From Bacteroidales bacterium (GTDB lineage Bacteria; Bacteroidota; Bacteroidia; Bacteroidales; UBA932), in NCBI GenBank assembly GCA_017555965.1, contig JAFZFH010000096.1, forward strand, positions 1-45,795: DNA of 45,795 nt. The letters run 5' to 3'. Positions 18,074-36,751 of this stretch are shown one piece after another. Below the pieces are notes generated by a model that had not been told where the DNA came from, searched no databases, and saw only the letters and a program-made list of their open reading frames with translations. Each line of letters opens with the position of its first letter. Within the stretch, counting starts at the first letter, position 1. The translations under genes were made by a program, and so were the position numbers.

Positions 18074-20296
18074 ATGAAATACTATAGAATATTATTTCTT
18101 GCTGCGGCTTTGACAGGACTCTCGTCATGTGCGATCGATCCTGTTAAGGAGTTCGAGGTTGAAAAACCAAAGGATATTGCGCAGTATGAGTATCTCAATG
18201 GTTATGATGTGCTGAAGAGCTATGTTGACCGTACGGCTTCTCCTGACTTTAAGTTGGGAGCAGCCCTTACGGCTAGCGAATTTACAGCAAAGGGTCAGGT
18301 ATATGCTCTTGCAGTCTCAAACTTTGATGAGATGACTGCCGGCAATGCTATGAAGTACGCTTCAGTTGTCGGAGACAAGGGTGATATGTCATTTGATGCT
18401 GTAAGAGATTTCGTAAACACTGCCGCAGAATCTGGTATGACAGTTTACGGACACACTCTTGCTTGGCACTCACAGCAGAACAACAAGTATCTCAACTCTC
18501 TTATCGCCGATAAGGAAATTGAGATCGAGGAAGGTGCAACTCAGACTGTAGTTGACGCTGAATTCGATTATTCGACATTCACAGGATGGTACTATTGGGG
18601 AGCTGGTCCTGATGGATCATCAAGAGGCATTGTAGACGGCGTGTTCCAGAGCTACAACCCTGAGGTTATTCCTAACTTCTGGGAGTTCCAGTACCACGTT
18701 GCTGACGGTATTCCTTGGGTAGCAGGAAGAACATACGACATCACTATGATGATCCGTGCTTCTGAGGAGACTTCATTCACGCTTGCTGCCGGTACATGGA
18801 GCGGCCAGGCTGGTGGCGACGTTAAGGTCGGTACAGAGTGGCAGGAAGTTAAAGTCAGCCGTACAGTAAGTGTTGACGGTAACGGATTCGTAATGTTCCA
18901 GTCCGGTAACTTCGCCGGTACTATCGAAATGCAGTGGCTCAAGGTTTCTCATGAAGAAGCTCTCGCAGTTTCATGGTGGACAGACCTCATTGCAAACGGA
19001 GATGCTGAAGGTGACGACTGCACAAACTTCGTGTCAACTCATATCGGTGCGACAAATGGTCCTGCTGATATCGTAGAGGGCGCAGGTGTAGACGGTACAA
19101 GAGCATTTGTGGTTTCTTCTGCAGGTGGTGGAGTTAACTCATGGGATACTCAGTTCTTCGTATACACTGAGCGCAAGCTTGTGGACGGAGATAAGATCAA
19201 GCTCGCTTTCGATTATCGTGCTGATGTTGATAACAATGCTGAATCACAGGCTCACGGTACTCCAGGAGGTTATATCCATTGGGATGCAGGTGCAGCTGTA
19301 AGCTTCACTACTGAATGGAAGCACTTCGAAAAGACTATCGTTGTCAACAGCACTATTTCTCCATCTGACAACTTCCAGACATTTGCTTGGAACCTTGATG
19401 TTGGAGCACCTGAGGCACCGGTAAACAAGTATTATTTCGATAACATCACATTTGCTATCGAGGAGTCAGGAAACACTATCCCTCTTACCCCTGCAGAAAA
19501 GAAGGAAGTTCTTACTGCAGCTATGGATACATGGATCAAGGGTATGATGGAAGCTACTGCAACTAAGGTTTCTGCTTGGGATGCAGTCAACGAGCCAATC
19601 TCAGGAAGAGATGGCGACGGTGACGGTTTCTATGACCTTTGGTCAGCAGACAACGGCGATGCAAGCTCGAACTTCTACTGGCAGGATTACCTCGGTGATG
19701 AGGAGTATGTACGCTTCGTTGTAGCCAAGGCACGCGAGTACTATGCTGAGTTCGGAGGTACTGAGCCTCTCAAGCTCTTCATCAACGATTATAATCTTGA
19801 GTCTGACTGGGATCAGAACAAGAAGCTCAAGAGCCTTATCCACTGGATTGGCGTCTGGGAGTCTGACGGCGTTACTCAGATTGACGGTATCGCAACTCAG
19901 ATGCACGTTTCATGCTATGAGAATCCACAGACTCAGGCAAGCAAGAAGGCTGCAGTAGTCGAGATGTTCAAGCTCATGGCTAAGACAGGTAAGCTTGTGA
20001 AGATTTCAGAACTTGATATGGGTTATGTAGATGCCAACGGCAATACAGTACCTACTACAAGCATGACTGAGGCTCAGCATCAGGCAATGGCAGAGTACTA
20101 CGAGTTCATCGTAAGCGAGTACTTCAAGAACGTTCCTGCAGCTCAGCGTTACGGTATCACTCAGTGGTGCCTCACTGACGCATCAGGTGAGCTTGGTACC
20201 GGTTGGAGAGGCGGCGAGCCTGTAGGTCTTTGGGATCAGAACTACAACCGTAAGCATACTTATGCAGGTTTTGTAGAAGGTCTTAGAGCTGAGTAA
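18074..20296 (+). CDS. xyn10C: Endo-1,4-beta-xylanase, GH10 with two inserted carbohydrate-binding modules
   Basis: This 740-residue lipoprotein (Cys19 in LTGLSSC) has a GH10 catalytic domain split by a large insertion. The first part (about 40-150) contains NFDEMTAGNAMKY and GHTLAWHSQ. Two tandem jelly-roll modules of CBM4/22 type fill about 155-297 and 300-465. The barrel then resumes (about 475-740) with acid/base Glu507 in DAVNEP and nucleophile Glu646 in KISELDMGY. A DGDGDGFYD loop just after the acid/base looks like a calcium site. This architecture is known for xylanases of Bacteroidetes xylan loci. It ends the xus operon, 19 bases after xusE, and is followed by a terminator. A role as surface endo-xylanase generating substrate for XusA-D is well supported. 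Confidence 0.95.
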   Translation: MKYYRILFLAAALTGLSSCAIDPVKEFEVEKPKDIAQYEYLNGYDVLKSYVDRTASPDFKLGAALTASEFTAKGQVYALAVSNFDEMTAGNAMKYASVVGDKGDMSFDAVRDFVNTAAESGMTVYGHTLAWHSQQNNKYLNSLIADKEIEIEEGATQTVVDAEFDYSTFTGWYYWGAGPDGSSRGIVDGVFQSYNPEVIPNFWEFQYHVADGIPWVAGRTYDITMMIRASEETSFTLAAGTWSGQAGGDVKVGTEWQEVKVSRTVSVDGNGFVMFQSGNFAGTIEMQWLKVSHEEALAVSWWTDLIANGDAEGDDCTNFVSTHIGATNGPADIVEGAGVDGTRAFVVSSAGGGVNSWDTQFFVYTERKLVDGDKIKLAFDYRADVDNNAESQAHGTPGGYIHWDAGAAVSFTTEWKHFEKTIVVNSTISPSDNFQTFAWNLDVGAPEAPVNKYYFDNITFAIEESGNTIPLTPAEKKEVLTAAMDTWIKGMMEATATKVSAWDAVNEPISGRDGDGDGFYDLWSADNGDASSNFYWQDYLGDEEYVRFVVAKAREYYAEFGGTEPLKLFINDYNLESDWDQNKKLKSLIHWIGVWESDGVTQIDGIATQMHVSCYENPQTQASKKAAVVEMFKLMAKTGKLVKISELDMGYVDANGNTVPTTSMTEAQHQAMAEYYEFIVSEYFKNVPAAQRYGITQWCLTDASGELGTGWRGGEPVGLWDQNYNRKHTYAGFVEGLRAE

Positions 20297-20317: not shown

Positions 20318-20351
20318 GTCGGAGGTCCTGTAAGGGGCCTCCGACTTTTTT
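20318..20351 (+). terminator. Rho-independent terminator of the xus operon
   Basis: An 11-pair stem (GTCGGAGGTCC with GGGCCTCCGAC, one G-U pair) and a short loop are followed directly by TTTTTT. It lies 21 bases after the GH10 stop and separates the two large operons. Confidence 0.9.
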
Positions 20352-20357
20352 ATATGC

Positions 20358-20388
20358 TTGACTATGTGGGAATAATTGCTTATTTTTG
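20358..20388 (+). promoter_or_regulatory. Predicted promoter of the second xylan operon
   Basis: TTG at 20358-20360 and TATTTTTG at 20381-20388 are separated by 20 bases and match the Bacteroidetes -33/-7 pattern. It lies just after the upstream terminator. Because it overlaps the first codons of the longest open frame, it supports the ATG at 20415 as the start of the next gene. Confidence 0.5.
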
Positions 20389-20414: not shown

Positions 20415-21881
20415 ATGAGCATATATATAAGGAAGTCTCTGTCACAGCTGCTTTTATCTTTCGTATCAGTTCTTGCTGTGTCATGTTCTTCATGGATGAA
20501 TCCGGAATCTGTTCTGGATGTTGAACCGGATGTTTTTCCGGATTATAAGGGAGTGACCATCCCGTGCAATATTGCACCGATGAATTTTATGGTAGAAGGC
20601 GCCGACAGGATCCAGACTGTCATTTCTGTTGATGGGCAGGAGAAGATAAAGGTGGCCGGCAAGGATGGCGTCATCAACATTCCGTTAAAGGAATGGCGTG
20701 CTCTGATGGAGCATAATCGTGACTCCAGACTCGAAGTTCAGGTATCTGTGTGGACAGAGGAATTCCCTCATGGAGCCACATACAGACCGTTTGTCATGAA
20801 TGTCGTCAAAGATGAAATCGATCCATGGATTTCTTATCGTCTGATTGAGCCGGGTTATGTCGGCTGGCGACAGTTGGGAATCTATCAGAGAGAGCTTGCT
20901 TCTTTTGATGAATCTGCAATCGTTTCTAACCATGCCTCTAATACGACATGCATAAACTGTCATAATTATCCGTCATATTCTTCCGAAAGCATGATGTTTC
21001 ATGCCAGAGGAGCGAACGGAGGTACTATTATCTATACCGACGGTGAGTATAAGAAGGTAGACTTCAAGAGCATCGGCCCAAAGAAGAATGCCACATATCC
21101 GGCATGGCATCCGGAAGGCAGATTCATTGCCTTTTCTTCAAACACAACCCATCAGATCTTCTTTGCTGAGGGAAATCATCCTATTGAAGTGTTCGATACA
21201 GCTTCAGACCTCATGTTATATGATATAAAGACGGGAGAAGTCCTGACTGATCCTAGATTCATGACAGAGGAGTCATTGGAAACTTTCCCTTCGTGGTCTC
21301 CTGACGGCAGATATCTGTACTTTGTGTCATATAAGGCGAAGTCGCTTCCGGTTCATTTTAACCCGTCGATCAGATATGATCTTTATAGAGTGTCTTTCGA
21401 CCCGATGACAGGAATGTTCGGAGATGAGATAGAGACTCTCTACGACTCATCAGTTCTGGGTGGAAGTGTTTCATATCCACGCGTATCTCCTGATGGCAGC
21501 AAGCTTCTATATACGTGGGCGGAATATGGAACATTCCCGATCTGGCATGCTGAAGCCGAGCTTCAGATGCTCGATCTGGAGACAAGCGAGCAGGTAGACC
21601 TCTCGGTGTGGAATGATCCTGCTGAGGCCGACAGCTACCATTCATGGTCTTCCGACGGAAGATGGGTGATATATGGAAGCCGCAGAATCGATGGCAGACA
21701 CACTCGTCTGTATATAGCTTATTATGACCATGAAGGAAATCCTCATAAACCGTTCCTGTTGCCACAGGAAGATCCGCGATATAATTTCTGGAGATTGAAG
21801 TCGTACAACGTTCCGGAATTCATCTCCGGTAAAGTGAGCCTTCCGGATGAGGTTGCCGACCTTTTTTATTCTGAAGATTAA
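20415..21881 (+). CDS. PD40/TolB-like propeller lipoprotein with a CxxCH motif (copy 1)
   Basis: The longest frame starts at a TTG (20376), but the ATG at 20415 gives a lipoprotein signal, MSIYIRKSLSQLLLSFVSVLAVSC (Cys24). The 488-residue protein has an N-terminal domain with VFPDYKGVTIPCNIAPMNF and the motif CINCH at residues 179-183, as in haem c attachment sites. A propeller with four PD40-type repeats follows: AWHPEGRFIAFSS, SWSPDGRYLYFVS, RVSPDGSKLLYTW and SWSSDGRWVIYGS. No function is established that I know of. The gene at 24782 is a clear paralogue with the same layout and a CVNCH motif. It is the first gene of an operon that also encodes GH5 and GH10 enzymes. An envelope location is certain from the signal; haem binding is only a possibility. 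Confidence 0.8.
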   Translation: MSIYIRKSLSQLLLSFVSVLAVSCSSWMNPESVLDVEPDVFPDYKGVTIPCNIAPMNFMVEGADRIQTVISVDGQEKIKVAGKDGVINIPLKEWRALMEHNRDSRLEVQVSVWTEEFPHGATYRPFVMNVVKDEIDPWISYRLIEPGYVGWRQLGIYQRELASFDESAIVSNHASNTTCINCHNYPSYSSESMMFHARGANGGTIIYTDGEYKKVDFKSIGPKKNATYPAWHPEGRFIAFSSNTTHQIFFAEGNHPIEVFDTASDLMLYDIKTGEVLTDPRFMTEESLETFPSWSPDGRYLYFVSYKAKSLPVHFNPSIRYDLYRVSFDPMTGMFGDEIETLYDSSVLGGSVSYPRVSPDGSKLLYTWAEYGTFPIWHAEAELQMLDLETSEQVDLSVWNDPAEADSYHSWSSDGRWVIYGSRRIDGRHTRLYIAYYDHEGNPHKPFLLPQEDPRYNFWRLKSYNVPEFISGKVSLPDEVADLFYSED

Positions 21882-21893
21882 AACTGCATTGAG

Positions 21894-23297
21894 ATGAGGA
21901 AATACATATACATACTGTTTTTTGTTTTCTTGTGGGCAATGTGGTATTTTGCCTACCCATACTTCCTTATATGGTTGGAGGGATTCAGCTGTTTTTCTAC
22001 AGTTCCTGACTTTACAACGATATATTTTGACCTTCCGGAGGATATTTTCAGATACATGGGAGCGTTCCTGCTTCAGTTTTATGCACATCCGGTCATAGGT
22101 GCAGCCATTCAGGCTATGTTGCCGGTGCTGTTTGTGCTCTGTGTGTCTTCAGTCATCAGACGATTGTTCAAAGAATCTGAAGGAATGCTGTGGATAGCTT
22201 TTGCTGCCCTTCCTGTATATGTCCATTATCAGATGAGTGACCTGACGCTCACAAGATCTTTGACAATATTGTTCGCAGCGGTTGCTGTGTCATTGATTGT
22301 ATGGCTGTCTGCACTTGCCGGAAAACCTTTCAGGAAAGTGCCTGAAATCATCCGCAACAGATATGTCTCTCTGGTCCTTCTGATTGTTTCGGCTGTGACA
22401 ACTTTCTTTGTCATCACTGACTCAGGATCCATGGGACGTGAATATGAGGATATTGCCCATCTTGAGTACCTTGCAGAAAATGGTGAATGGAATGAGATCC
22501 TGGAAATCGTTTCCGCTCAGGATGCTGTCAGGAATGAATACAAGCGCAAGTATGTGCTTCTTGCATTGGTTCAGACCGGCAAGTTGCCTGATTATGCATT
22601 CAGCTACGGACTTTCATCGTCGGAAGACTTTATGTTCTACACTGTTCAGGAACCATTCTGTCTGGCCTTCAATGTGCTGTTCTACCGCAGTCTGGGCATG
22701 AATAATCCGGCAGTCTATCATCTGTATCAGCAGGCAATACAGTCGTTTCCGGGTATGAGCTTTGATGTTTTGAGGAATCTGGCTGACATCTATCTTGAAC
22801 AGAAGGATTATGATCTGGCCAGAAAGTATATGGATATCCTTGCTCATTCCTCATGTCACGGAAAATGGCTTAAGGAGCGCCTTCCTGTACTTGAATCCAT
22901 TCGAGATGAAGAACCTGTATCACACATCACAGGAGCGCCATTTATTCTGGAGTCATTCCTTCCCGATATTTCATCCATGGTAGACAGGTATCCGAATGAT
23001 AATAGATTTTCGGACTATCTCCTGTGTGGTGTGCTTGCTGAAAAGGACGGAAATACATTCTATAACATATTCAATATCGTAGCAAATTCTCTTTATTCCA
23101 GTGGAAAACAGATTCCTGTCCTTTACCAGGAAGCCCTTCTGCTGATTGCGAGCAAGGAACCGGATATCTTGAATATGTACAGGATAGACGAGGAAGTCTG
23201 GAAGAAATTTTCAGATTTTACAAACCTGATGAGCAGCGGAAAGACATCACAGGCCAAAAGGAAATATGCCGGTACTTACTGGGCTTATGTATACTAA
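21894..23297 (+). CDS. Polytopic membrane protein, DUF6057-like (copy 1)
   Basis: This 467-residue protein starts 12 bases after the preceding lipoprotein gene. The first 180 residues hold about five hydrophobic segments, beginning with YIYILFFVFLWAMWYFAYPYF and including LPVLFVLCVSSVI and YVSLVLLIVSAVTTFF. The remaining 290 residues are soluble and helical, with LEYLAENGEWNEILEI and LADIYLEQKDYDLARKY segments that look like tetratricopeptide repeats. The overall pattern resembles the Bacteroidetes family DUF6057, as best I can recall; I cannot check the assignment here. The next gene has the same layout. It has no known reaction. Its tight spacing with lipoproteins carrying propellers suggests an inner-membrane partner for them. 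Confidence 0.65.
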   Translation: MRKYIYILFFVFLWAMWYFAYPYFLIWLEGFSCFSTVPDFTTIYFDLPEDIFRYMGAFLLQFYAHPVIGAAIQAMLPVLFVLCVSSVIRRLFKESEGMLWIAFAALPVYVHYQMSDLTLTRSLTILFAAVAVSLIVWLSALAGKPFRKVPEIIRNRYVSLVLLIVSAVTTFFVITDSGSMGREYEDIAHLEYLAENGEWNEILEIVSAQDAVRNEYKRKYVLLALVQTGKLPDYAFSYGLSSSEDFMFYTVQEPFCLAFNVLFYRSLGMNNPAVYHLYQQAIQSFPGMSFDVLRNLADIYLEQKDYDLARKYMDILAHSSCHGKWLKERLPVLESIRDEEPVSHITGAPFILESFLPDISSMVDRYPNDNRFSDYLLCGVLAEKDGNTFYNIFNIVANSLYSSGKQIPVLYQEALLLIASKEPDILNMYRIDEEVWKKFSDFTNLMSSGKTSQAKRKYAGTYWAYVY

Positions 23298-23300
23298 CCG

Positions 23301-24785
23301 ATGAAGAAAAACTTTAAAATAATAATACTATGTGCTGTCATCCTCTGTATGGCGGCAGGAATCCATTTTACCCAGGAATTCCGCTTCTATAACATCGAGA
23401 GCAACGACCTCTTTCTGTATGACTGGCCGGACATCCTGGCTAAGCTGATGAATACTGGAGGACTGGCTTCAATGACCGCATCCTTCCTTACCCAGTTCAT
23501 GAGGATCCCGTTTGCAGGAACCGTAATAGTTTCTGCTATATATGTGCTTGCGGCATTTCTTCTCTATAAGACTCTCGTCCGCATCGCAAAGACAAAGTCC
23601 ATGGCAGGATTCTCCCTGCTTCCGGCAGCCTTCCTTTTCCTCTGCATGGAAAATGACTATTACAGATTCCAGGGACATGTCGCATTTGTCATGATGCTTG
23701 CGGCACTGTATGCATATGTGTCTGTAGACAAGGAAAAATTACGTTACATTGCAGGAATAATCATCGTTCCCTCGCTCTACTATCTCGCTGGTAGCGTGTC
23801 CATGGTCTTCGCCGTATCAGCTCTTGTCTATGAAATAGTTACGACAGGCGTGAAGGGATTCAAGGCTCTTGCGTATCCGGTCGTTTTCGGTGCGACTGCA
23901 TTGATCTGCGTCAAGACTTCGATGGTCAGCAGTTGGGAACATGCGATATCGCCGTTCATGTATTATGACTGGCCGTCAACATATTATTTCCCGATATATG
24001 CATGGGCCATCGTGCCTATACTGATTCTTGCCGCATGGGTGGTGTCACGTATGGATATGAAGGAATCCTTCATCAAGGTCCTGATCGGAACAGGAATCTT
24101 CTTTTCGTTCTTTGTCGCAGGAAATCTCTATTCGCAGGTTCACAACAGAACCTTCTATCGTCTTATCCAGGAACAGTATTGGGCTGAAAATGAGGATTGG
24201 GACAGAATCATAAGTACAGCTGACCGCAGGCAGCCTACCTTCCTTGTCAGCTATCTGAACCTGGCACTTGCAAATAAAGGACAGCTTGTCCAGAACTTCA
24301 GATACTACAATCCGCAGGATCTGTCCAGCCTGATGTATCCGACCCCGAATCTCAAGACAGGACTTTCGCTCCAGAGTACCGTATACCAGGCATGGGGTTA
24401 TCTCGGCTCTGCCCGAAAGGCAGCCTTTGACGGAAACGTCGTGACCCCAGGTTCGAGACATCCGCGTCAGCTTCAGTCGCTCATCAGGATAAATCTGGTG
24501 CTGGGAGCACATGATGTCGCTGAAAAATATATGAACCTCCTTGAAAAGACCCTGTTCTACAGAGGTTGGGCTGTCGATATGAGGAAATATCTCGGCGACG
24601 TAGAGGCGATCAAAGGAGATAAGGTGATGGGAATGATGTACGCATCCATTCCTCTGACAGACGAATATGCGAGATATGAAGGAGTCGTGGGAGATATGAG
24701 GGACATCTTCGAGGCATGTCCGTCGAATGTCATCCTGTCTCAGTTCTATGAGTTGTACAAAATATTGGAGGAGGCGCAGCGATGA
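23301..24785 (+). CDS. Polytopic membrane protein, DUF6057-like (copy 2)
   Basis: This 494-residue protein begins three bases after its neighbour, so the two are probably translated together. It has about eight hydrophobic segments in the first 280 residues, among them IIILCAVILCMAAGIHF, TVIVSAIYVLAAFLLY, YYFPIYAWAIVPILILAAWVV and VLIGTGIFFSFFVAGNL. A soluble helical tail of about 210 residues follows, with TPR-like pieces (WAENEDWDRIISTADRRQPTFLVSYLNLALANKGQL, in part). Copy 1 and copy 2 share layout and the LFLYDW/FYNIE style of N-terminus only loosely, so they are diverged relatives. The stop overlaps the start of the next gene by four bases. Function is unknown. Confidence 0.65.
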   Translation: MKKNFKIIILCAVILCMAAGIHFTQEFRFYNIESNDLFLYDWPDILAKLMNTGGLASMTASFLTQFMRIPFAGTVIVSAIYVLAAFLLYKTLVRIAKTKSMAGFSLLPAAFLFLCMENDYYRFQGHVAFVMMLAALYAYVSVDKEKLRYIAGIIIVPSLYYLAGSVSMVFAVSALVYEIVTTGVKGFKALAYPVVFGATALICVKTSMVSSWEHAISPFMYYDWPSTYYFPIYAWAIVPILILAAWVVSRMDMKESFIKVLIGTGIFFSFFVAGNLYSQVHNRTFYRLIQEQYWAENEDWDRIISTADRRQPTFLVSYLNLALANKGQLVQNFRYYNPQDLSSLMYPTPNLKTGLSLQSTVYQAWGYLGSARKAAFDGNVVTPGSRHPRQLQSLIRINLVLGAHDVAEKYMNLLEKTLFYRGWAVDMRKYLGDVEAIKGDKVMGMMYASIPLTDEYARYEGVVGDMRDIFEACPSNVILSQFYELYKILEEAQR

Positions 24786-26254
24786 AGAAAATGTTGATGC
24801 TTGTCATGATCTTGAGCGGAATCATCTGTTCCTGCTCTCATGATATCACAGTCGAAGAATATAAGTCCATATCTCCGGTCGTATTCCCGGACTACAAGGA
24901 TGTGGTCATACCGTCGAATGTCGCACCGATGAACTTCGTGGTCGAAGCACCGGCAGGAAAGATGGTCCTGAAGCTCGAGCACGGTGGGGAAGTGGATTAT
25001 CTTGCAGTCAAAGATGGAGAAGTGTCTTTCGGAAAGCGCTTCTGGAACTCGTTGATGGAGAAGTCTCGAGGCGGCCGCATCACGTTTACACTTTGTGTGA
25101 AGGAGGACGGCAAGTGGATAGGATATGAACCTTTTACCATGACAGTCGCAGAGGAAGACATGGATCCGTACCTTGCGTACAGACTCATACCTCCGGGATA
25201 TACGATGTGGAAGGAGATGAGCATCTGTCAGAGAAACCTCGAGAACTATAAGGAAAGCCGTATATACAGTAATCTTCAGGGACGAGGAAACTGTGTGAAC
25301 TGCCATTCTTTCAGAGACAGGGATCCGGACTACATGCTTTTCCATCTGCGTTCTGAACTTGGCGGTACTTATATCTTCCGAAACGGCGTCAAGGAAAAGC
25401 TTGACACAAAGACAGATAATACCATTTCTCCACTTGTATATCCTTACTGGCATACCACAGGAAACTATGTGGCCTTTACAGTAAACACTACAAATGAGGT
25501 CGTACATACCAAGAACATAAATGTCGTGGAAGTGGTGGATGAGGTGTCGGATGTAGTTGTGTATGACGTGAACGCACACGAGATTGTGACAGCTGATGTC
25601 CTCAGCTCCGATGATTCATTCGAGACCTTCCCGACATTCTCGCCAGACGGCAGAAGTCTCTATTTCTGCAGTGCTGCATCTGTGGCACCTATGCCTGCGA
25701 AATTCAGGGGAGCAAAATACAGCCTCTGCAGAGTGGACTTCAATCCTGAAGACTGCTCGTTCGGTACTCAGGTGGACACTCTCTATAATGCCCGAATTGA
25801 AGACAGAAGCGTATCCTTCCCAAGAATCTCTCCGGACGGAAGATTCCTTGTGTTCGCCTTGAGCAACTACGGCAACTTCTCGATCTGGCATAAGGATTCA
25901 GACCTTTATTCTGTAGATCTTACGACCGGAGAAGTGTCTCCGATGACCGCGCTGAACAGCGACGATGTGGAAAGCTACCACTCTTGGAGCAGCAACAGCA
26001 GATGGCTGGTATTCAGCAGCCGAAGAGACGACGGATTGTATACAAAACCTTATTTCTCCTATATTGACCGCGAAGGAAATGCTCATAAGCCGTTCCTTCT
26101 GCCACAGAAGAGTCCCCGCAGATACTATGATTCTCAGATGTATGCCTACAATATTCCTGAGTTTGTCAGCGGAAAGGTGGGAGTGAACGGAAGCGAAATA
26201 GCAGAATTTGCGCGTGAGGGCAAGGCGATGAAGTTGGGTTACAGAAGAAAATGA
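24782..26254 (+). CDS. PD40/TolB-like propeller lipoprotein with a CxxCH motif (copy 2)
   Basis: This 490-residue lipoprotein (signal MKKMLMLVMILSGIICSC, Cys18) is a paralogue of the gene at 20415. Both share VFPDYKxVxIPxNxAPMNF near the N-terminus, PWISYRLIEPGY versus PYLAYRLIPPGY, a CxxCH motif (CVNCH at 171-175 here), PD40 repeats (TFSPDGRSLYFCS, RISPDGRFLVFAL, SWSSNSRWLVFSS) and an HKPFLLPQ segment close to the end. It overlaps the genes on both sides by four bases (ATGA), which indicates translational coupling. Its biochemical role is unknown. Conservation of the cysteine-histidine motif between diverged copies suggests that the motif matters. Haem attachment would require a cytochrome c maturation system, which is not in the window. 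Confidence 0.8.
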   Translation: MKKMLMLVMILSGIICSCSHDITVEEYKSISPVVFPDYKDVVIPSNVAPMNFVVEAPAGKMVLKLEHGGEVDYLAVKDGEVSFGKRFWNSLMEKSRGGRITFTLCVKEDGKWIGYEPFTMTVAEEDMDPYLAYRLIPPGYTMWKEMSICQRNLENYKESRIYSNLQGRGNCVNCHSFRDRDPDYMLFHLRSELGGTYIFRNGVKEKLDTKTDNTISPLVYPYWHTTGNYVAFTVNTTNEVVHTKNINVVEVVDEVSDVVVYDVNAHEIVTADVLSSDDSFETFPTFSPDGRSLYFCSAASVAPMPAKFRGAKYSLCRVDFNPEDCSFGTQVDTLYNARIEDRSVSFPRISPDGRFLVFALSNYGNFSIWHKDSDLYSVDLTTGEVSPMTALNSDDVESYHSWSSNSRWLVFSSRRDDGLYTKPYFSYIDREGNAHKPFLLPQKSPRRYYDSQMYAYNIPEFVSGKVGVNGSEIAEFAREGKAMKLGYRRK

Positions 26255-27366
26255 CAGGAATGAGATATAACAGATCAGAATATGACACAGCCTCAGTGCA
26301 GGTCTCCTCGTTTGAGACTGCAGGAGGTACAGGTGAGTACCACATGATGGTGCATGTCGCTGCAGAAGGTTCATTCGAAGAACAGCTGCAGGCGCTTCAT
26401 GCATCTTATGATGATGTGGCCTCAAAAATTAATGCGACCCCGATATTCATCAGATATTTTCTGAGCGATGCAGCAAATCAGGCAGAGGCCCTGAAGAGTG
26501 CATCTGAAGAACGTTGGAACTGTGCGGTGTCCGTAATCGGCCAGCCGCCGCTCGATGGCAGCAAGGTGGCGATGTGGGCCTACCTTGTATCTGACGTCAC
26601 TGATGTACGCGAAACGGACGGAATCTGGTCTGCGGACTACCTTGGTTGCAGACATCTTTGGTTCAGCAATGGATGTCATTGCGGAGGGGATTCGAAGGCG
26701 CAGACCGAAATGATATTGGATTCATATGCGCAGAAGATTGAATCAAAGGGATGCAGTATTCCGGATAATTGTCTGCGTACATGGTTCTTTGTGCAGGATG
26801 TGGATACGAACTATATGGGAGTCGTGGTCGGAAGAAAGGAACGTTTCCAGCAGATGGGCCTGACTGAGAAGACCCATTATCTTGCAAGCACCGGAATCGC
26901 CGGAACGAACGGATATAAGGATTCTCTGGTTTCGATGGATGCATATGCGGTCGAAGGCATCCCTGCCGAAAAGGTTACGTACCTGAAAGGATCCACCCAT
27001 CTCAACCCGACCCACGAATACGGCGTGACCTTCGAAAGAGGTACGGTGGTGGATTTTGCAGATAGAAGACATGTCCTCATTTCTGGAACGGCAAGCATCG
27101 ACAACCGTGGACAGATCGTCCATCCGGGAGATGTAAGGAAGCAGACCCTCCGTATGTGGGAGAATGTCGAGGTGCTTCTGGCAGAGGCCGGATGTGCATA
27201 TGAGGATGTCGTGCATATGATTGTGTATCTGAGAGATATCGCTGATTATGCTTCAGTCAGGTCGATGTATGAAGAACGTTTCCCTCAGCATCCGAAAGTA
27301 TTCGTGTGGGCACCTGTATGCCGCCCGGGCTGGCTTGTCGAGATGGAATGTATAGCTATTAAATGA
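26251..27366 (+). CDS. YjgF/Rid-superfamily protein, chorismatase (FkbO/Hyg5)-like layout
   Basis: This 371-residue protein has no signal peptide and should be cytoplasmic. The C-terminal 120 residues are a YjgF/Rid domain: HVLISGTASID, an amphipathic WENVEVLLAEAGCAYEDVVHM helix segment (in part), and the closing motif CRPGWLVEMECIAI. Arg358 is placed like the RidA substrate-binding arginine. The N-terminal half looks like a second, degenerate YjgF fold, and the linking segment TWFFVQDVDTNYMGVVVGRKE with LASTGIAG recalls chorismatases of the FkbO/Hyg5/XanB2 group, which have this length. It could therefore be a chorismate-cleaving enzyme, or a Rid-type deaminase acting on another small molecule. 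It overlaps the preceding gene by four bases and precedes the GH5 gene by ten. Why it belongs to a xylan operon is unclear. Confidence 0.7.
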   Translation: MTGMRYNRSEYDTASVQVSSFETAGGTGEYHMMVHVAAEGSFEEQLQALHASYDDVASKINATPIFIRYFLSDAANQAEALKSASEERWNCAVSVIGQPPLDGSKVAMWAYLVSDVTDVRETDGIWSADYLGCRHLWFSNGCHCGGDSKAQTEMILDSYAQKIESKGCSIPDNCLRTWFFVQDVDTNYMGVVVGRKERFQQMGLTEKTHYLASTGIAGTNGYKDSLVSMDAYAVEGIPAEKVTYLKGSTHLNPTHEYGVTFERGTVVDFADRRHVLISGTASIDNRGQIVHPGDVRKQTLRMWENVEVLLAEAGCAYEDVVHMIVYLRDIADYASVRSMYEERFPQHPKVFVWAPVCRPGWLVEMECIAIK

Positions 27367-27376
27367 CACTCATACT

Positions 27377-29365
27377 ATGAAGACCTTGCTTGAAAGATTT
27401 CTGGTAGCCCTTATGGTCGTCTTTGCACTTTGTTTTACTGCCTGCTCTCCGGATGATATACCGGAAACGGATAAGGAGGAGGAGAAGGGTGAGGTGAAAC
27501 CGCCATGGCACGATAAGGAGAACAATGAAGAGACTCCTGTCGATCCGGAACCGGAACCGGAGGATAACACACCTCTGGAACTGAATGTAGTCGGAAGGTA
27601 TCTCAAGGATGCTCAGGGCAATATCGTGAACCTCCACGGATTCGGACAGACATACAGTCCGTTCTTCAACAATAATGCATGGGGTAACTATGATGTGGAG
27701 GCATGTCTGCGCCATAACAAAGCCATGATCGACCAGCTGCTGGCAGCAGGATGGAGGATGAATTTTGTCCGAATGCATATGGACCCGTACTGGAGCGACG
27801 ATACATCAAAGCCGTCAGTCAGATACGAAGGGCATGAGCGCTTCTCCGAGGTGCGTTTCAGAAATTATCTTGACAAGGTATTTGTCCCTATGGCTGAATA
27901 TGCTATCAGCAAGGGACTTTATGTAGTCATGCGCCCTCCTGGAGTATCTCCGGATCTGATTGCGGTGAATGATGACTATCAGACTTTCCTTGAAAAGGTC
28001 TGGGATATCGTTTCGAAACATCCTAAACTCAAGAATAACGGTAAGGTCATGTTCGAGCTTGCCAACGAGCCGATCAACATCAAGGGTACAGACGGTACTG
28101 TGGGAAGCAGCGGTGATGCACACTTCCAGAGTGCTCAGATGTTTTTTCAAGCTGTGATTGACAAGATCCGCGGTAACAAGGCGCGTAACATCATCTGGGT
28201 GCCGGGTCTGGGATACCAGTCTCAGTATGCAGGATATGCGACACATCGCTTTACAGGAGAGAATATCGGATTTGCGATCCATGTGTATCCGGGATGGTAT
28301 AACAGTGATGCCGAAGTCGATCCTAACGAAAATGTCGGTGGCATCAGAGGCGGCGGATATGACGGTTTCCAGAGAGGTTGGGACGCTCAGATCAAGCCTG
28401 TGGCAGATTATGCTCCGATAATGGTGACCGAAATGGACTGGGCGCCAGCGAAATATGATTCATCATGGGGAAAGAGCGTAACCGGTATTGCAGGTGGTGA
28501 AGGCTTCGGTGCCAACTTCAAATACATTGCAGACAACTCAGGTAATGTAAGCTGGATGATCTTTACAAGCCAGGAACTTCTAGTGAATTTCAAGGATGTA
28601 CCCGGAACTCCTGGCAACTATACCTTCCTGAACGATCCTGAAGCATGTCCGTGGCCTGTATATCACTGGTTCAAGGAGTATGCAGGAGAAACTGTGTCAG
28701 AAGGAACTCTGACCGGTCTCGAGATAACAGGAGTCGGTGCTTCTCTTGACCTTAGACTTGGTGACAGCAGGAATCTTGTCGTAAAGGCATCGTATGCTGA
28801 CGGTTCTGCTGCAGCAGTCACTTCGAAGGCTGTGCTGAAAGTTGCTGATGAGAGTGTAGCAGTAATAGCCGGAAGCAAGCTCGTTGCAAAGAAGGAAGGC
28901 TCCACCAAACTGACTGTCTCATATACTTCGCAGGGTGGTGTGACCAAGACTCTGGAGGTTGCAGTAAGGGTGATAACTCCATTCCCTCTGACCAATGCGA
29001 TGTTCAATCCCTCGATATGGGAGACAGGCTCATTCGATGAAGCGACAAGGACTTTGATAACAGGTCAGTACGGTTTCGGAGGATGGCTGTATTCGGAAGG
29101 ATTGGATCTTTCTTCGTTCAAGACCTTGACTGTCGAACTCGGAAATGATAATGACAGTGCAGTATCGTTCAGACTGTTCGATAAGAACAACTACTGGAGC
29201 AATCCTGCAATGTATGATTTCGGAGATTCAAAGAAGGTTACAATTGACCTCCATAATATGAAGGATAAGGACGGAAACAAGATCAGTCCGGCACACTTGT
29301 ATATTGTGGGCTTCTGGTCATACGGTAACAAACCTATCATCATAGATAAGATAACCCTTCAGTAA
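27377..29365 (+). CDS. GH5 endo-glycanase (probable xylanase) lipoprotein with Ig-like domain
   Basis: This 662-residue lipoprotein has Cys23 in CFTAC, followed by the acidic stretch SPDDIPETDKEEE that should send it to the cell surface, then a Pro/Glu linker to residue 72. The GH5 barrel (about 72-440) has LKDAQGNIVNLHGFG, FVRMHMDPYW, acid/base Glu231 in FELANEP and nucleophile Glu352 in VTEMDW. A bacterial Ig-like (BIG2) domain follows (about 445-535), and a C-terminal jelly-roll (about 537-662) may bind carbohydrate. Family GH5 includes cellulases, mannanases and xylanases; the setting makes xylanase (for example subfamily 21) most likely, but I cannot assign the subfamily. The N-terminal 60 residues closely resemble those of the next gene. 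Confidence 0.85.
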   Translation: MKTLLERFLVALMVVFALCFTACSPDDIPETDKEEEKGEVKPPWHDKENNEETPVDPEPEPEDNTPLELNVVGRYLKDAQGNIVNLHGFGQTYSPFFNNNAWGNYDVEACLRHNKAMIDQLLAAGWRMNFVRMHMDPYWSDDTSKPSVRYEGHERFSEVRFRNYLDKVFVPMAEYAISKGLYVVMRPPGVSPDLIAVNDDYQTFLEKVWDIVSKHPKLKNNGKVMFELANEPINIKGTDGTVGSSGDAHFQSAQMFFQAVIDKIRGNKARNIIWVPGLGYQSQYAGYATHRFTGENIGFAIHVYPGWYNSDAEVDPNENVGGIRGGGYDGFQRGWDAQIKPVADYAPIMVTEMDWAPAKYDSSWGKSVTGIAGGEGFGANFKYIADNSGNVSWMIFTSQELLVNFKDVPGTPGNYTFLNDPEACPWPVYHWFKEYAGETVSEGTLTGLEITGVGASLDLRLGDSRNLVVKASYADGSAAAVTSKAVLKVADESVAVIAGSKLVAKKEGSTKLTVSYTSQGGVTKTLEVAVRVITPFPLTNAMFNPSIWETGSFDEATRTLITGQYGFGGWLYSEGLDLSSFKTLTVELGNDNDSAVSFRLFDKNNYWSNPAMYDFGDSKKVTIDLHNMKDKDGNKISPAHLYIVGFWSYGNKPIIIDKITLQ

Positions 29366-29373
29366 TCTGAACC

Positions 29374-31185
29374 ATGAGACTGTTCCTTGAAAGACTTTTG
29401 TCTGCGATGCTGATTTTCGCATTGCTATGCTTTGCTGCATGTACTCCTGAAGATATTCCTGAAAATGATAAGGAAGATGATAAGGAAGATGTGAGACCGC
29501 CTTGGCATGACAAGGAAGAAAATGAAGGTCAGGACCCCGGGCCGGAACCTGATCCGGAGCCGGCTCCGGAACCGGACAATTCGCCGTCCTATAACAACCT
29601 TGATGCATACGATCATCTGAAGAATTATGTGAACCGCTCGGTATCTCCGAACTTCAAGTTAGGTGCAGCCATCCCTGTCGATGACTTCTTCAAGAAATCC
29701 TCAAGGTATGAAATGGCTGTCAACAACTTCGATGAGATGACTCCGGAGAATGCGTTCAAGCACGCTTCAGTAGTCCGTGCAGACGGTACGATGGACTTCT
29801 CCCGTGTGAAGCGTACACTTGACGAGGCTGAGAAGGCGGGCATGTCTGTTTTCGGACATACTCTTGCATGGCATGCCCAGCAGACTGCCTACCTGAACTC
29901 CGTCATAAAAGGAAAGAAGGTGGAACTGCCTTCGGGTGAGACTTCTGAGGCGGTGCTTCTGGAGGCTGATTTCAATAATGGAGAAAGTCCGTTCATGGGA
30001 TGGGGCAACAATTCGACACGCTCGGTCCAGAACGGTGCGCTCAAGGTTTCCAATCCGTCGGTGGTCCAGAGTTGGGAGGCTCAGTTCGCGTATGATATGG
30101 CTTCTCCGTTTGAGGTGGGAAAGATCTATGCTCTGAGATTCAGAATCAAGGGATCATCGAAAGGAAAACTGAGCGCAGGTCTTCAGATAACCGACGGTTA
30201 CAAGTCCGCAGGTGAGTACCCTGCAGTTGAGTTCGATACAGCATGGAAGAATGTCGAGATCAAGTGCGAATGTACTGCTGCCGGAGGTAACCGCCTGATC
30301 TTCAGTTTCGGAGAATTTGCAGGAGATATCTATATCGACGATTTCTATTTTATCGATACTGCATCCACATATGAGTATCTCCCTCTGACCGACGCAGAGA
30401 AGAAGGAGGTGCTGATCGGAGAGATGGACCGTTGGATCAAGGGTATGATGGAAGTTACTGCGACCAGAGTCTCGGCCTGGGATGCTGTCAACGAGGCTAT
30501 TTCCGGATGGGACGGAAACGGTGACGGATATTATGATCTCGAATCTGGCAAGGGTGGAAGTTCAAGCAACTTCTACTGGCAGGACTATCTGGGAGATATC
30601 GATTATGTACGTATAGTATTTGAAAAAGCCCGCAAGTATTACGCTGAATGTGGCGGAACTGCACCTCTGCGACTTTTCATCAACGACTATAACCTCGAGT
30701 CGGACTGGGATGACAACAAGAAGCTCAAGAGCCTTATCAATTGGATCCAGAAATGGGAAGCTGATGGTGTGACCAAGGTCGACGGTATCGGTACTCAGAT
30801 GCATATCTCATGTTATGCCGACCAGAATACTCAGAGAAGCAAGGAAGAACATATCGTGAAGATGCTTCAGCTGATGTCGAATACAGGTAAACTTGTCAAG
30901 ATCTCCGAACTCGATATGGGATATGTGGATATTCATGGCAATTCCCTTAAAGTTTCGCAGATGACAGACGCCCAGCACAGGGCGATGGCGGACTTCTACG
31001 AATTCATCATCCGCAAATACTTTGAAATCGTTCCTCCTGCCCAACAGTATGGCATCACCCATTGGGCGCCGGTGGACCCTCCGACAGGTGCATGGAGAGG
31101 CGACGAGCCTGCCGGCATATGGGACGGTAACTACAACCGAAAATACGCCTACGCAGGCTACGCAAACGGTCTGATGGCATATTAA
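29374..31185 (+). CDS. Endo-1,4-beta-xylanase, GH10 with one inserted carbohydrate-binding module
   Basis: This 603-residue lipoprotein (Cys23 in CFAAC, then TPEDIPENDKEDD) is probably surface-exposed. After a Pro/Glu-rich linker, the GH10 domain starts near residue 72 (DHLKNYVNRSVSPNFKLGAA, NFDEMTPENAF, GHTLAWHAQ). It is interrupted by a single CBM4/22-like jelly-roll at about 187-328. It resumes with acid/base Glu374 in DAVNEA and nucleophile Glu512 in KISELDMGY. Compared with the xylanase at 18074, it has one inserted module in place of two and NEA in place of NEP, a common variant. The catalytic halves of the two enzymes are otherwise very alike, including the DGNGDGYYD loop. It lies nine bases after the GH5 gene. 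Confidence 0.94.
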   Translation: MRLFLERLLSAMLIFALLCFAACTPEDIPENDKEDDKEDVRPPWHDKEENEGQDPGPEPDPEPAPEPDNSPSYNNLDAYDHLKNYVNRSVSPNFKLGAAIPVDDFFKKSSRYEMAVNNFDEMTPENAFKHASVVRADGTMDFSRVKRTLDEAEKAGMSVFGHTLAWHAQQTAYLNSVIKGKKVELPSGETSEAVLLEADFNNGESPFMGWGNNSTRSVQNGALKVSNPSVVQSWEAQFAYDMASPFEVGKIYALRFRIKGSSKGKLSAGLQITDGYKSAGEYPAVEFDTAWKNVEIKCECTAAGGNRLIFSFGEFAGDIYIDDFYFIDTASTYEYLPLTDAEKKEVLIGEMDRWIKGMMEVTATRVSAWDAVNEAISGWDGNGDGYYDLESGKGGSSSNFYWQDYLGDIDYVRIVFEKARKYYAECGGTAPLRLFINDYNLESDWDDNKKLKSLINWIQKWEADGVTKVDGIGTQMHISCYADQNTQRSKEEHIVKMLQLMSNTGKLVKISELDMGYVDIHGNSLKVSQMTDAQHRAMADFYEFIIRKYFEIVPPAQQYGITHWAPVDPPTGAWRGDEPAGIWDGNYNRKYAYAGYANGLMAY

Positions 31186-31191
31186 TTGACA

Positions 31192-31226
31192 TTTCATGGT
31201 GCTGATTAATTGTTAGTACCATGAAA
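31192..31226 (+). other. Stem-loop covering the start codon of the HdeD-like gene
   Basis: TTTCATGGT at 31192-31200 is perfectly complementary to ACCATGAAA at 31218-31226. Six more pairs (three of them G-U) extend the stem to about 15 pairs around a five-base loop (TAATT). The right arm contains the ATG at 31221. In RNA this would hide the start codon, so it may lower or control translation of the last gene of the operon. No T-tract follows, so it is not a classical terminator. Confidence 0.6.
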
Positions 31227-31811
31227 CGTCATTTTGAAAATCTGGCCGACAGAGCCGGCCGTGCTGTCCATCATTGGTGGCTGCTGATGCTTGCAGGCAT
31301 CTTCTGTGTTGCCTTGGGCATTTCTGTGTTTGTCTTTCCGATGGAAAGCTATATGGTCCTCAGTATCCTGACAGGAATAATAATGCTGTTTGTGGGAGCT
31401 TCCCAGCTCATTCTGGCATCCACCAGCGGGAACTATATCGCAATGCGCGGATATATGGTGATCGGTGGAGTCCTCGATTTCCTGCTGGGTATCTTCCTAT
31501 GTGCATATCCTGGAGGCGCTGCGGCATTTCTCCCGTTCATGCTAGGAATCTGGATGATGTATCATGCCTTCATGACCATAGCATTCGGAGGCGATCTTGA
31601 GACCTTCAGGATAAAAGGCTTCGGCTGGACCATTTTCGGCGGAGTGCTCCTTCTCATTCTGTCTTTGATCATCCTTGCCAATCCATTCAGTGTCGGAATC
31701 GCGACAATAGTCCTTATGACAGGAATCGGACTCATCCTCTTTGGCTTCCTGCTTTGCTGGATGTCAGTGATTTTAAGGGATGTCGACAAGAATATTATAA
31801 AGGATTACTGA
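31221..31811 (+). CDS. HdeD/DUF308-family membrane protein
   Basis: This 196-residue protein has six evenly spaced hydrophobic segments, the hallmark of the HdeD (DUF308) family: LLMLAGIFCVALGISVFVF, LSILTGIIMLFVGASQLIL, GYMVIGGVLDFLLGIFLCAY, FMLGIWMMYHAFMTIAF, TIFGGVLLLILSLIILANP and IATIVLMTGIGLILFGFLL. The short ends are charged. HdeD of E. coli is an inner-membrane protein linked to acid resistance, but the biochemical role of the family is not settled. It is the last gene of the operon starting at 20415, 35 bases after the GH10 stop. Its start codon lies inside a strong predicted hairpin. No direct link to xylan is known. Confidence 0.85.
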   Translation: MKRHFENLADRAGRAVHHWWLLMLAGIFCVALGISVFVFPMESYMVLSILTGIIMLFVGASQLILASTSGNYIAMRGYMVIGGVLDFLLGIFLCAYPGGAAAFLPFMLGIWMMYHAFMTIAFGGDLETFRIKGFGWTIFGGVLLLILSLIILANPFSVGIATIVLMTGIGLILFGFLLCWMSVILRDVDKNIIKDY

Positions 31812-34350: not shown

Positions 34351-35115
34351 ATGGATAATGTTCAGACAAATTCGGCGATATCGGTCGACTGTGCGATATT
34401 CGGGTTCGATGGAACGAACCTGAAGACTCTTCTTGTCAGAAGAAGGACGGTCGACCCGCTATATCACGAAAAGGAACTGAAGCTGCCCGGAGGTATGATC
34501 AGGGAAAACGAGACCCTGCCGGAAGCTGCCTCGCGAATTGCTGAAGGAGCGACCGGACTCAGAGACCTCTATCTCAAGCAGACCTCGATCTTCTCGGATC
34601 CGGAACGTGTCGACGAAGATGAGTTGAAATGGATATGCCAGTACCACGGCATACATACCGACCGAGTGGTTACTGTGGGATATTATGCCCTGGTGAAGCT
34701 TGATCAGGGAATGACCCGATATACGAAGAGCAAGGGTGCGGTCTGGGTGAATGTCGATGATATCCACTACCTTATCATGGACCATATGGACATCCTTTCC
34801 GATGCCCTGTCAGTTCTTCAGAAGGATATCGTATGGTCGCCTGTCGCGTTCAAGCTTCTGCCGAAGAAGTTTACCGTGCGACAGCTGCAGAACCTTCTCG
34901 AAGCCGTGTTCGGAATTGAGATAGACAACAGGAATTTCCGTAAGAAACTCTTCGCTTCAGGCATCCTTCTGGAGACCGAAGAGATGGAAGATAACGTAAA
35001 TCACAAGCCTGCAAGACTCTATACGCTGAATAAAAGTGCTTTCGGAAAGAAAGGAAATAGGATGGATATAGTAAATTTATCCTTGTTTTCTGGTCTTTTA
35101 AGTGTCAGAAAATAA
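34351..35115 (+). CDS. Nudix-type transcriptional regulator (NrtR/AraR class), probable xylose regulator
   Basis: This 254-residue protein joins an N-terminal Nudix domain (about 8-145) to a C-terminal winged helix (about 165-240: LPKKFTVRQLQNLLEAVFG, then NRNFRKKLFASGILLE). In the Nudix box the first Gly48 and Glu54 and Arg62 are kept. The catalytic glutamates of the consensus REUxEE are replaced (Ile63, Gly66, Ala67), so hydrolase activity is very unlikely. That is the pattern of NrtR-type regulators, including the Bacteroides arabinose regulator. In B. thetaiotaomicron a similar Nudix gene precedes the xylulokinase, xylose isomerase and symporter genes, the same order as here. It probably represses or activates xylBAE in response to a pentose ligand. 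That last step is inference. Confidence 0.88.
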   Translation: MDNVQTNSAISVDCAIFGFDGTNLKTLLVRRRTVDPLYHEKELKLPGGMIRENETLPEAASRIAEGATGLRDLYLKQTSIFSDPERVDEDELKWICQYHGIHTDRVVTVGYYALVKLDQGMTRYTKSKGAVWVNVDDIHYLIMDHMDILSDALSVLQKDIVWSPVAFKLLPKKFTVRQLQNLLEAVFGIEIDNRNFRKKLFASGILLETEEMEDNVNHKPARLYTLNKSAFGKKGNRMDIVNLSLFSGLLSVRK

Positions 35116-35155
35116 GTAATTTAAACATTTAGTTAGCGTATTTTTGGTACAAACC

Positions 35156-35186
35156 TTTCGTAGATTGGAAAAATCTGCTAATTTTG
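35156..35186 (+). promoter_or_regulatory. xylB promoter with a possible operator in the spacer
   Basis: TTTC at 35156-35159 and TAATTTTG at 35179-35186 are 19 bases apart, a good Bacteroidetes promoter. Between them lies AGATT-GGAAA-AATCT (35162-35176), a perfect 5-base inverted repeat with a 5-base centre. This is a natural place for a repressor such as the Nudix regulator encoded just upstream. The leader is about 40 bases long. Confidence 0.6.
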
Positions 35187-35232
35187 CATTGATGTATTAA
35201 CGTCACATATAGGAATAACTAAAATTAAAAAC

Positions 35233-36705
35233 ATGTATCTATTAGGTTACGATATCGGAAGCTCGTCAGTTAAAGCGAGCATCGTGGATGCACAGAGCGG
35301 AAAGTGCGCTGCATCAGCATTTTATCCAAAGTCAGAAGCTCCTATCATCGCTGTAAAGAAGGGATGGGCAGAGCAGGAACCATCATCATGGTGGGAGTAT
35401 CTCAAGCAGGCAACTGCTGACATTCTTGCTACTTCAGGAGTTGATCCGAAGGATATCAAGGCAATCGGTATCTCTTATCAGATGCACGGTCTTGTTTGCG
35501 TAGACAAGGACATGAACGTTCTTCGTCCGTCAATCATCTGGTGCGACTCTCGCGCAGTGCCTTACGGTCAGAACGCATTCGACACACTCGGACACGAGAA
35601 CTGCCTCCAGCATCTTCTCAACTCTCCAGGTAACTTCACAGCTTCAAAGCTCGCATGGGTTAAGGAGAATGAGCCGGAGCTCTACGCTAAGATCTACAAG
35701 ATCATGCTTCCAGGTGACTACATCGCAATGAAGCTCAGCGGTGAGATCTGCACAACAGTTTCAGGTCTTTCAGAGGGTATGTTCTGGGATTTCAAGAACA
35801 ACGAGGTTTCAAAGATGCTTCTCGATTACTACGGAATCGACAGCTCTCTCATCCCAGAGATCCGTCCTACATTCTCAGAGCAGGGTAAGGTAAGCGCAGC
35901 AGCTGCTGCAGAGCTCGGCCTTGCAGAGGGAACACCTATCACTTACCGTGGTGGTGACCAGCCTAACAACGCACTCTCACTCAACGTGTTCAACCCAGGT
36001 GAGATCGCTTCTACAGCAGGTACTTCAGGCGTTGTTTACGGTGTCCTCGGAGATGTAAACTATGACCCTAAGTCACGTGTGAACACATTCGCACATGTTA
36101 ACCATACAGCTGAGCAGACTCGTCTCGGTGTACTTCTCTGCATCAACGGTACAGGTATCCTCAATTCATGGATGAAGAGAAACGTTGCTCCAGAGGGCAT
36201 CTCTTATGCAGACATGAACGACCTCGCAGCTCAGGCTCCTATCGGTAGCGCAGGCGTAAGCATCCTCCCATTCGGTAACGGTGCTGAGCGTATGCTCGAG
36301 AACAAGGAGGTTGGTGCTTCTATCCACGGAATCAACTTCAACGTACACAACAAGTCACACCTTGTACGTGCAGCTCAGGAGGGTATCGTATTCTCATTCA
36401 AGTACGGTATCGAGGTTATGGAGCAGATGGGTATGAACGTAAGCAAGATCCACGCTGGTCACGCTAACATGTTCCTCAGCCCTATCTTCAGAAATACTCT
36501 CGCAGGTGTAACAGGCGCAGTCATCGATCTTTACGATACTGACGGTTCTGTAGGTGCAGCTAAGGGTGCAGGTATCGGAGCAGGTATCTACAAGGATAAC
36601 AACGACGCATTCTCAACTCTTGAGAAGCTCGCTGTAATCGAGCCTTCAGCAGCTGACGCACAGGCATACGCTGATGCATACGAGACTTGGAAGTCAAGAC
36701 TTTAA
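35233..36705 (+). CDS. xylB: Xylulokinase
   Basis: This 490-residue FGGY-family kinase phosphorylates D-xylulose to xylulose 5-phosphate for the pentose phosphate pathway. The N-terminal ATPase motif GYDIGSSSVKASIVD is followed by the substrate loop ISYQMHGLV, the segment IIWCDSRA, catalytic Asp242 in YRGGDQPNNA, and the phosphate-binding TAGTSGVVYG. The C-terminal FGGY motif region contains HAGHANMFLSPIF. The length is normal for XylB. It starts the xyl operon, and xylA follows after 46 bases without a terminator. Codon use is strongly biased towards preferred codons, which suggests high expression. Confidence 0.95.
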   Translation: MYLLGYDIGSSSVKASIVDAQSGKCAASAFYPKSEAPIIAVKKGWAEQEPSSWWEYLKQATADILATSGVDPKDIKAIGISYQMHGLVCVDKDMNVLRPSIIWCDSRAVPYGQNAFDTLGHENCLQHLLNSPGNFTASKLAWVKENEPELYAKIYKIMLPGDYIAMKLSGEICTTVSGLSEGMFWDFKNNEVSKMLLDYYGIDSSLIPEIRPTFSEQGKVSAAAAAELGLAEGTPITYRGGDQPNNALSLNVFNPGEIASTAGTSGVVYGVLGDVNYDPKSRVNTFAHVNHTAEQTRLGVLLCINGTGILNSWMKRNVAPEGISYADMNDLAAQAPIGSAGVSILPFGNGAERMLENKEVGASIHGINFNVHNKSHLVRAAQEGIVFSFKYGIEVMEQMGMNVSKIHAGHANMFLSPIFRNTLAGVTGAVIDLYDTDGSVGAAKGAGIGAGIYKDNNDAFSTLEKLAVIEPSAADAQAYADAYETWKSRL

Positions 36706-36751
36706 TAACTGAAAATTCATACTAACAACTTTTATTTATTTCACTAAAATT

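Follow-up and report, generated by a model that had tools for sequence, protein, structure and literature searches.

Polysaccharide loci of gut Bacteroidota are mainly read as sets of genes for binding, import and hydrolysis. The stretch of DNA described here, called the window, covers 45,795 nucleotides of a Bacteroidales genome and shares with the xylan polysaccharide utilization loci (PULs) of Bacteroidota a hybrid two-component system (HTCS)-type regulator, two SusC/SusD pairs, GH10 and GH5 glycoside hydrolases (GH), an FGGY kinase and a xylose isomerase-like gene. It also carries five adjoining genes, A1-B1-B2-A2-E, which encode two predicted propeller lipoproteins (A), two DUF6057 membrane proteins (B) and a chorismatase-like protein (E). 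No description of such an A-B-B-A-E insert in a xylan PUL was found in the literature searched, which consisted mostly of listings and the beginnings of abstracts, and material of the same kind on DUF6057, on chorismatase or 3-hydroxybenzoate in Bacteroidota and on PD40 with cytochrome c and PULs contained nothing on the module.

Each of these proteins comes from a known sequence family and the novelty lies in their combination; the mechanism proposed below is hypothetical. A has PD40 repeats in common with TolB of the Tol-Pal system, from which it differs as a lipoprotein with a CxNCH motif; its scores of 40.6 and 40.8 bits, far under the TIGR02800 cut-off of 343, rule out that A is TolB. A propeller combined with CxxCH is shared with cd1 nitrite reductase and with hydrazine synthase alpha, yet A has no sequence match to them and its CxxCH lies on a strand in the model; a relationship to hydrazine synthase alpha found no support in the sequence search. 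B is like the GT-C glycosyltransferases (PMT_2) in its inferred topology and by a remote profile match, but without support from Foldseek. E matches the Hyg5 (CH-II) chorismatases (5ag3, 5a3k) better than FkbO and agrees with them in key residues, whilst its N-terminal part is divergent and its gene adjoins those of propeller lipoproteins.

The B-A pair and its chorismatase-like partner

We compared 101 loci, namely the window, 20 stretches of relatives and 80 named loci, with all open reading frames (ORFs) kept. Loci L033-L052 were chosen by hand among DUF6057 hits, while for L053-L132 the 80 top-scoring of 589 matches to an A profile were taken, so that A is present in all of the latter by construction; many loci end at contig edges and most neighbour genes are without a family scan. 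Out of 128 A genes, 118 have a B gene on the same strand no more than 400 bp before them, with a median gap of 3 bp (at most 30 bp in 110 of the 118 and exactly -4 in 25), and 122 have such a B within 400 bp on either side; two of the six that have none lie at a locus edge. The repeating unit is the B-A pair and not a mirrored quintet. The A-B-B-A arrangement is found only in the window, L053 and L054, which rules out the quintet as the ancestral unit, and the preliminary description of this DNA, which had proposed a five-gene module, is partly supported: A and B are indeed neighbours that co-evolve, but not as a five-gene set.

The reversed order, A then B, is seen for 4 of the 128 A genes (window, L053, L054 and L051). 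With two short loci added, six A proteins have this order, and a tree of 141 places them in a single clade (support 0.995); three further sites of this order, seen as coordinates (G044:C22, G080:C10 and G135:C64), were left out of the tree. The window thus looks mirrored because two different subfamilies lie next to each other in it, one of them the separate, reversed-order clade of A1-B1. A1 and A2 are far apart in the tree, which rules out a recent tandem duplication of one pair. The distances among A proteins and among B proteins correlate (r = 0.77 over 126 pairs), a value that none of 1000 permutations reaches (maximum 0.12), and in 30 of 32 same-locus comparisons the fit is better for the adjacent partner. 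For the window the value is 1.51 for own partners against -0.23 when they are swapped; A1 with B1 and A2 with B2 are co-evolving pairs, as judged from their sequences. No further A or B pair was detected in the window's own genome, which is 86% complete. In a distant family (L185, 2608-4716) an A-like propeller with a CANCH motif is fused to C-terminal tetratricopeptide repeats (TPRs) and is divergent from the adjoining E. Two other protein clusters often lie between SusD and B-A pairs (e.g., L109:3186-4719), one lipoprotein-like of about 278 amino acids (c5, 13 loci) and one stand-alone DUF4369-like of about 199 (c6, 12 loci); these counts, like those of GH10, CcsBA and the SusC/SusD background below, come from an ORF set without genes under longer antisense ORFs and are lower bounds.

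E has a Ribonuc_L-PSP match, a weak match to the FkbO/Hyg5 chorismatase model and, by eye, no signal peptide. A profile of 18 E proteins matches the Hyg5 structures 5ag3 (4e-41, profile positions 122-364) and 5a3k (6e-39) and the FkbO structure 4bps (5e-32), and all listed RidA-type structures rank below these chorismatases, which rules out a housekeeping RidA deaminase. The YjgF-superfamily assignment made earlier is correct but too generic, as both profile and residues point to the Hyg5 type. For Nat-hyg5 the catalytic Glu325 and the CH-II residues Cys318, Gly231 and Gly164 are given in the accessible part of the source (PMC7170507); an offset of 9 converts this numbering to that of 5ag3. 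E364, C357, G279 and G215, invariant in 18/18 E proteins, align with Glu334, Cys327, Gly240 and Gly173 of 5ag3. Hyg5 and E read SGTAS where FkbO reads SATAG. In 50 E proteins of at least 290 amino acids, [AS]TG[IV] is present in 50, CR..L..E.E in 47 and SGTA[SG] in 46; of the three without CR..L..E.E, two read CRDELLFEID and one is truncated by the locus edge. E can be described as a Hyg5-type chorismatase-like protein and a predicted 3-hydroxybenzoate synthase.

The presence of E follows that of A. In a sample of 149 genomes of the window's family, E is found in 33, that is in 26 of the 29 genomes with A and in 7 of the 120 without it. In a sample of 392 genomes of the phylum, with at most four candidates scored per genome, A is found in five and E in nine; all five genomes with A, from five families including that of the window, have E, against 4 of the 387 others. 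The Fisher tests on these co-occurrences ignore relatedness. Three distant genomes hold E beside A or B (E-B-A in G187, B-A-E in G226 and E-DUF4369-like-B-A in G521). E lies in the same stretch as A in 19 of the 101 loci, though its gene is often found in another part of the genome. Given the links of A with B and with E, the module as first pictured, with an outer lipoprotein, a membrane protein and a cytosolic enzyme, remains fairly described, with the pair as its unit. In 31 of the 33 family genomes with E there is one E match, while A reaches up to 11 per genome, some being pieces of one gene; this suggests that one E serves several A-B pairs. A fusion of an E-like protein with a CutC domain (Pfam 1.7e-66) is seen in L174 (9847-11598).

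A1 and A2 are 40% identical, match PD40 repeats in Pfam (4.5e-20 and 4.2e-14) and hold a single CxxCH each, as expected from their earlier description as paralogues. CxxCH is found in all 128 A genes and in 148/148 A proteins of at least 330 amino acids, 146 of which read C.NCH. C18, which follows the signal peptide and marks a lipoprotein, is invariant in 83/83 A proteins, and 85 of 114 agree with a loose lipobox pattern. In these 85 the mean number of acidic residues at +2 to +6 is 0.58, against 1.74 in 19 of 21 SusD proteins. This weak acidic surface-export signal indicates that A, a predicted lipoprotein, is probably periplasm-facing.

Both B proteins match DUF6057 (PF19529) well above its gathering score of 29.8 (B1 187 bits, 7e-55; B2 297 bits, 4e-88). 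Their polytopic nature stands, and the single-chain AlphaFold2 model of B2 (predicted local distance difference test, pLDDT, 93.9) has a helical C-terminal end; the TPR-like tails that had been assigned to them are less clear, with all TPR matches of B1 below the Pfam cut-offs and none in B2. Hydropathy and charges of B2 suggest an N-terminus inside, about nine transmembrane (TM) helices and helical repeats outside the cytoplasm.

Proposed function and rival explanations

The explanation that we prefer is an envelope module of A-B pairs and E, which uses an aromatic compound, in which A is a redox or haem protein, and which was recruited to a xylan locus. E would convert chorismate to 3-hydroxybenzoate and pyruvate, and the A-B units would use 3-hydroxybenzoate, or a derivative, at the envelope. 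B would be an inner-membrane protein whose repeats lie on the periplasmic side, and would contact the periplasm-facing propeller lipoprotein A, which would be a redox protein, most likely with covalent haem (or another cofactor) at CxNCH. The pairs recruited to the xylan locus would be expressed with GH5 and GH10, and we propose that through this co-expression growth on xylan turns on the envelope reaction. As a whole this explanation is tentative, and we hold it to be quite possible rather than probable. A more specific version, in which a chorismate-derived hydroxybenzoate, as a rule from a single chorismatase per genome, is the cofactor or mediator of haem propeller lipoproteins, each with a dedicated GT-C-like partner, in an undescribed Bacteroidota redox system recruited to polysaccharide loci, is unlikely; if it were true, the breakdown of a given glycan would be coupled to an electron-transfer or oxidative reaction at the envelope. 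A chorismatase and CxxCH propeller lipoproteins, once with cytochrome assembly, would add a chemical function to glycan loci that has not been looked for there, and DUF6057 and its partner gain a testable role.

The haem assignment is favoured by the genomic context and opposed by the predicted fold of A2. In L129 a gene for cytochrome c assembly (ResB-CcsA) comes 1 bp past B-A-E, and in the window's genome CcsA, ResB and a tri-CxxCH protein are encoded side by side. Further E paralogues of G485, which accompany CcsBA and multi-CxxCH proteins (L190) or a di-haem oxidoreductase (L189), also speak for haem. PF01578 is found in 26 of the 29 family genomes with A against 57 of the 120 without it, in 5 of the 7 that have E and no A, and in 4/4 of the other genomes with A in the phylum sample. 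Several points weigh against this assignment and the wider proposal. The CcsA association is confounded by relatedness; PF01578 was not found in three genomes with A (G081, with just a fragment of A, G125 and G128; completeness 81, 90 and 82%), and a CcsBA relative was found in just 1 of the 101 loci with a one-sequence query. In ordinary c-type cytochromes the CxxCH lies on a helix. In the AlphaFold2 model of A2 (pLDDT 94.5, predicted template modelling score 0.92; single chain) CxNCH is on the beta strand 171-177 (pLDDT about 93), and from strand alternation the two cysteines should be on opposite faces. The best Foldseek matches of A2 are peptidase propellers, with cd1 nitrite reductase (NirS) only at rank 14, a PDB sequence search with A returned no similar haem protein and a Pfam scan of A1 and A2 no cytochrome family. 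Thus the motif and the maturation genes of a c-type cytochrome are present, whereas its helix location, fold and Pfam match are absent. As for E, its scores against TIGR04444 (47.6 in the window, 161.5 in L109 and 93 in L190) are below the cut-off of 325 bits, and it is therefore filed as chorismatase-like and not as a member of that model; moreover, 3 of the 29 family genomes with A have no detected E.

One alternative that fits the strand position of CxNCH and the peptidase-like fold is that A is not a haem protein and that C171, N173 and H175, together with H188 and R190, form a non-haem metal or catalytic propeller site, at which the product of E would act as ligand, chelator or substrate, as it might in iron handling. 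H188 and R190 are on the neighbouring strand and invariant in 83/83 A proteins, tandem E genes in one genome have an imelysin and a di-haem oxidoreductase as neighbours, and the SusC/SusD enrichment near the module would suit chelate uptake. Yet cytochrome c assembly genes track the module, a CxxCH so conserved is unusual for such a site, and H188 is replaced by Tyr in 4 of the 18 members of a second alignment and has no alignment in L185. We consider this alternative possible but on balance somewhat unlikely, and for the site itself haem is judged somewhat more likely than a non-haem centre. Another reading starts from B, which may be a GT-C-like glycosyltransferase with periplasmic repeats, so that the module would glycosylate or remodel an envelope substrate with A as acceptor or chaperone. 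The hhalign comparison gives B a collinear match with 11 PMT_2 proteins (50-74% probability, B columns 87-191) against less than 1% for five control membrane families, which are small at 3-6 sequences each; the B2 model begins with a TM helix, two short helices and a TM helix, an arrangement that we take to be like that of GT-C folds, for which TMTC-like proteins with TPRs are presumably a comparison; and an acidic residue after TM1, E33, is near-invariant. However, Foldseek found no significant structural relative of the B2 model (best E-value 0.14), and this reading leaves E and CxNCH unexplained. The kinship of B with GT-C enzymes is a lead only, and a glycosylating module is very doubtful.

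The A-B pairs could also be mobile or freely reshuffled genes with a general role, and their position in a xylan locus would then be irrelevant to xylan use. Their distribution is patchy (A in 29/149 family and 5/392 phylum genomes), SusC/SusD are called in just 33 of the 80 named loci and in none of the other 47, and the module has a promoter-like element of its own. On the other hand, the five nearest relatives of A2 (L053-L057) are all in loci with Pfam-confirmed GH10, which also hold GH5, GH43, GH8, GH31, GH97, GH95 or esterase genes; with the two GH10 proteins of the window as queries, no GH10 was called in the other 95 loci. L054 keeps the whole window order (A1-B1-B2-A2-E-GH5-GH10-HdeD) and L053 is syntenic with the window as A-B-B-A-GH10-GH5-HdeD, because of which the arrangement is not a product of chance. 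Within 2.5 kb of the module the SusC/SusD density is 1.11 per 10 kb, and at a distance of 7.5-10 kb it has fallen to 0.34. No SusC/SusD was found in 281 kb of background (18 E loci) or in another 186 kb (14 loci, among which L145 holds a module); these loci are from the window's family and unmatched, and the gradient within loci is the better control. We regard such hitchhiking as improbable. The xylan link of the window module is real, but the module is not xylan-specific: in L129 a pair lies in a mannan-type locus (GH3, GH26 and GH130), in other loci, for example L101, L107 and L109, it follows SusC-SusD-lipoprotein-DUF4369-like genes, and the 47 named loci mentioned above have no called SusC/SusD.

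Three side observations concern haem proteins and E. In the window's genome (L137, G000:C35, 6763-9752) the tri-CxxCH protein has a haem-binding domain and CCP_MauG and lies beside the CcsA-like and ResB-like genes. In another genome (L190, G485:C2, 932-11296) an E paralogue, CcsBA, a 1331-amino-acid HZS_alpha and FGE protein and a 591-amino-acid propeller with two CxxCH form one same-strand run, which appears to be a hydrazine-synthase-like set in a member of the Bacteroidota. The same genome (L189, G485:C60, 4058-13807) has two close E genes, with an imelysin, a di-haem oxidoreductase and a small protein with CxxCH nearby.

The window locus and its transcription signals

All five ORFs were found on the forward strand in the order and with the gaps first assigned to them (12, 3, -4 and -4 bp), and the GH5, GH10 and HdeD-like genes reported downstream were identified as well (Table 1). 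Upstream of the module are the HTCS-type regulator, two SusC/SusD pairs, a BT_3987-like protein and a GH10; downstream, the GH5, GH10 and DUF308 genes are accompanied by GH95, an NrtR/AraR-type regulator, an FGGY sugar kinase, a xylose isomerase-like gene and a sugar transporter. Because of this gene content the window is read as a xylan locus.

Table 1. Genes and putative transcription signals of the module and its surroundings (window positions).
Feature	Position	Strand	Description
GH10 xylanase, upstream unit	18074-20296	+	precedes the terminator-like hairpin
Terminator-like hairpin	20318-20345	+	between upstream GH10 and A1; -24 kcal/mol, z -5.5
TANNTTTG element	20381-20388	+	putative promoter of the A1 unit; sequence there TATTTTTG
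A1	20415-21881	+	488 amino acids from ATG; predicted lipoprotein, PD40 beta-propeller, CINCH motif; reversed-order (A then B) subfamily
B1	21894-23297	+	DUF6057 membrane protein with a short membrane part and a TPR-like tail; pairs with A1
B2	23301-24785	+	DUF6057 membrane protein with about 9 inferred TM helices ahead of helical repeats; pairs with A2
A2	24782-26254	+	predicted lipoprotein, N-terminal strand-rich domain and PD40 propeller, CVNCH motif
E	26251-27366	+	chorismatase-like, Hyg5/CH-II type (predicted 3-hydroxybenzoate synthase), probably cytosolic
GH5-family protein	27377-29365	+	starts 10 bp past E
GH10 xylanase with CBM4_9	29374-31185	+	probably same transcription unit as the module
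DUF308 (HdeD-like) membrane protein	31221-31811	+	

The hairpin before A1 has a 12-bp stem followed by a T run and is retained, with sequence changes, in the orthologous gaps of L053 and L054 (read by eye). It is followed by TANNTTTG, presumably a Bacteroidota-type -7 element, which is seen at the aligned position in L053 and L054 too. Since the hairpin and the promoter-like element recur together, A1 may head a second transcription unit, and the module probably heads its own unit from A1 to DUF308. This is what we infer and not more, because the window has many TANNTTTG sites and the region before A1 does not match the stricter pattern of two parts, TTTG-N17..23-TANNTTTG, as it has no -33 TTTG at the tested spacing. 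The view that the module is embedded in a xylanase operon can be kept for the downstream genes, with which it probably forms one unit; the upstream GH10 would be split off by the two signals.

In the whole window (1-45795) there are 35 TANNTTTG sites against 20 expected, a number that none of 100 shuffles reaches, and several of them directly precede genes, such as those at 31852 before GH95 and at 35139 and 35179 before the sugar kinase. At 34351-38068 the Nudix/NrtR-AraR-type regulator adjoins the sugar kinase and the xylose isomerase-like gene, and this group is probably the xylose-sensing branch of the locus.

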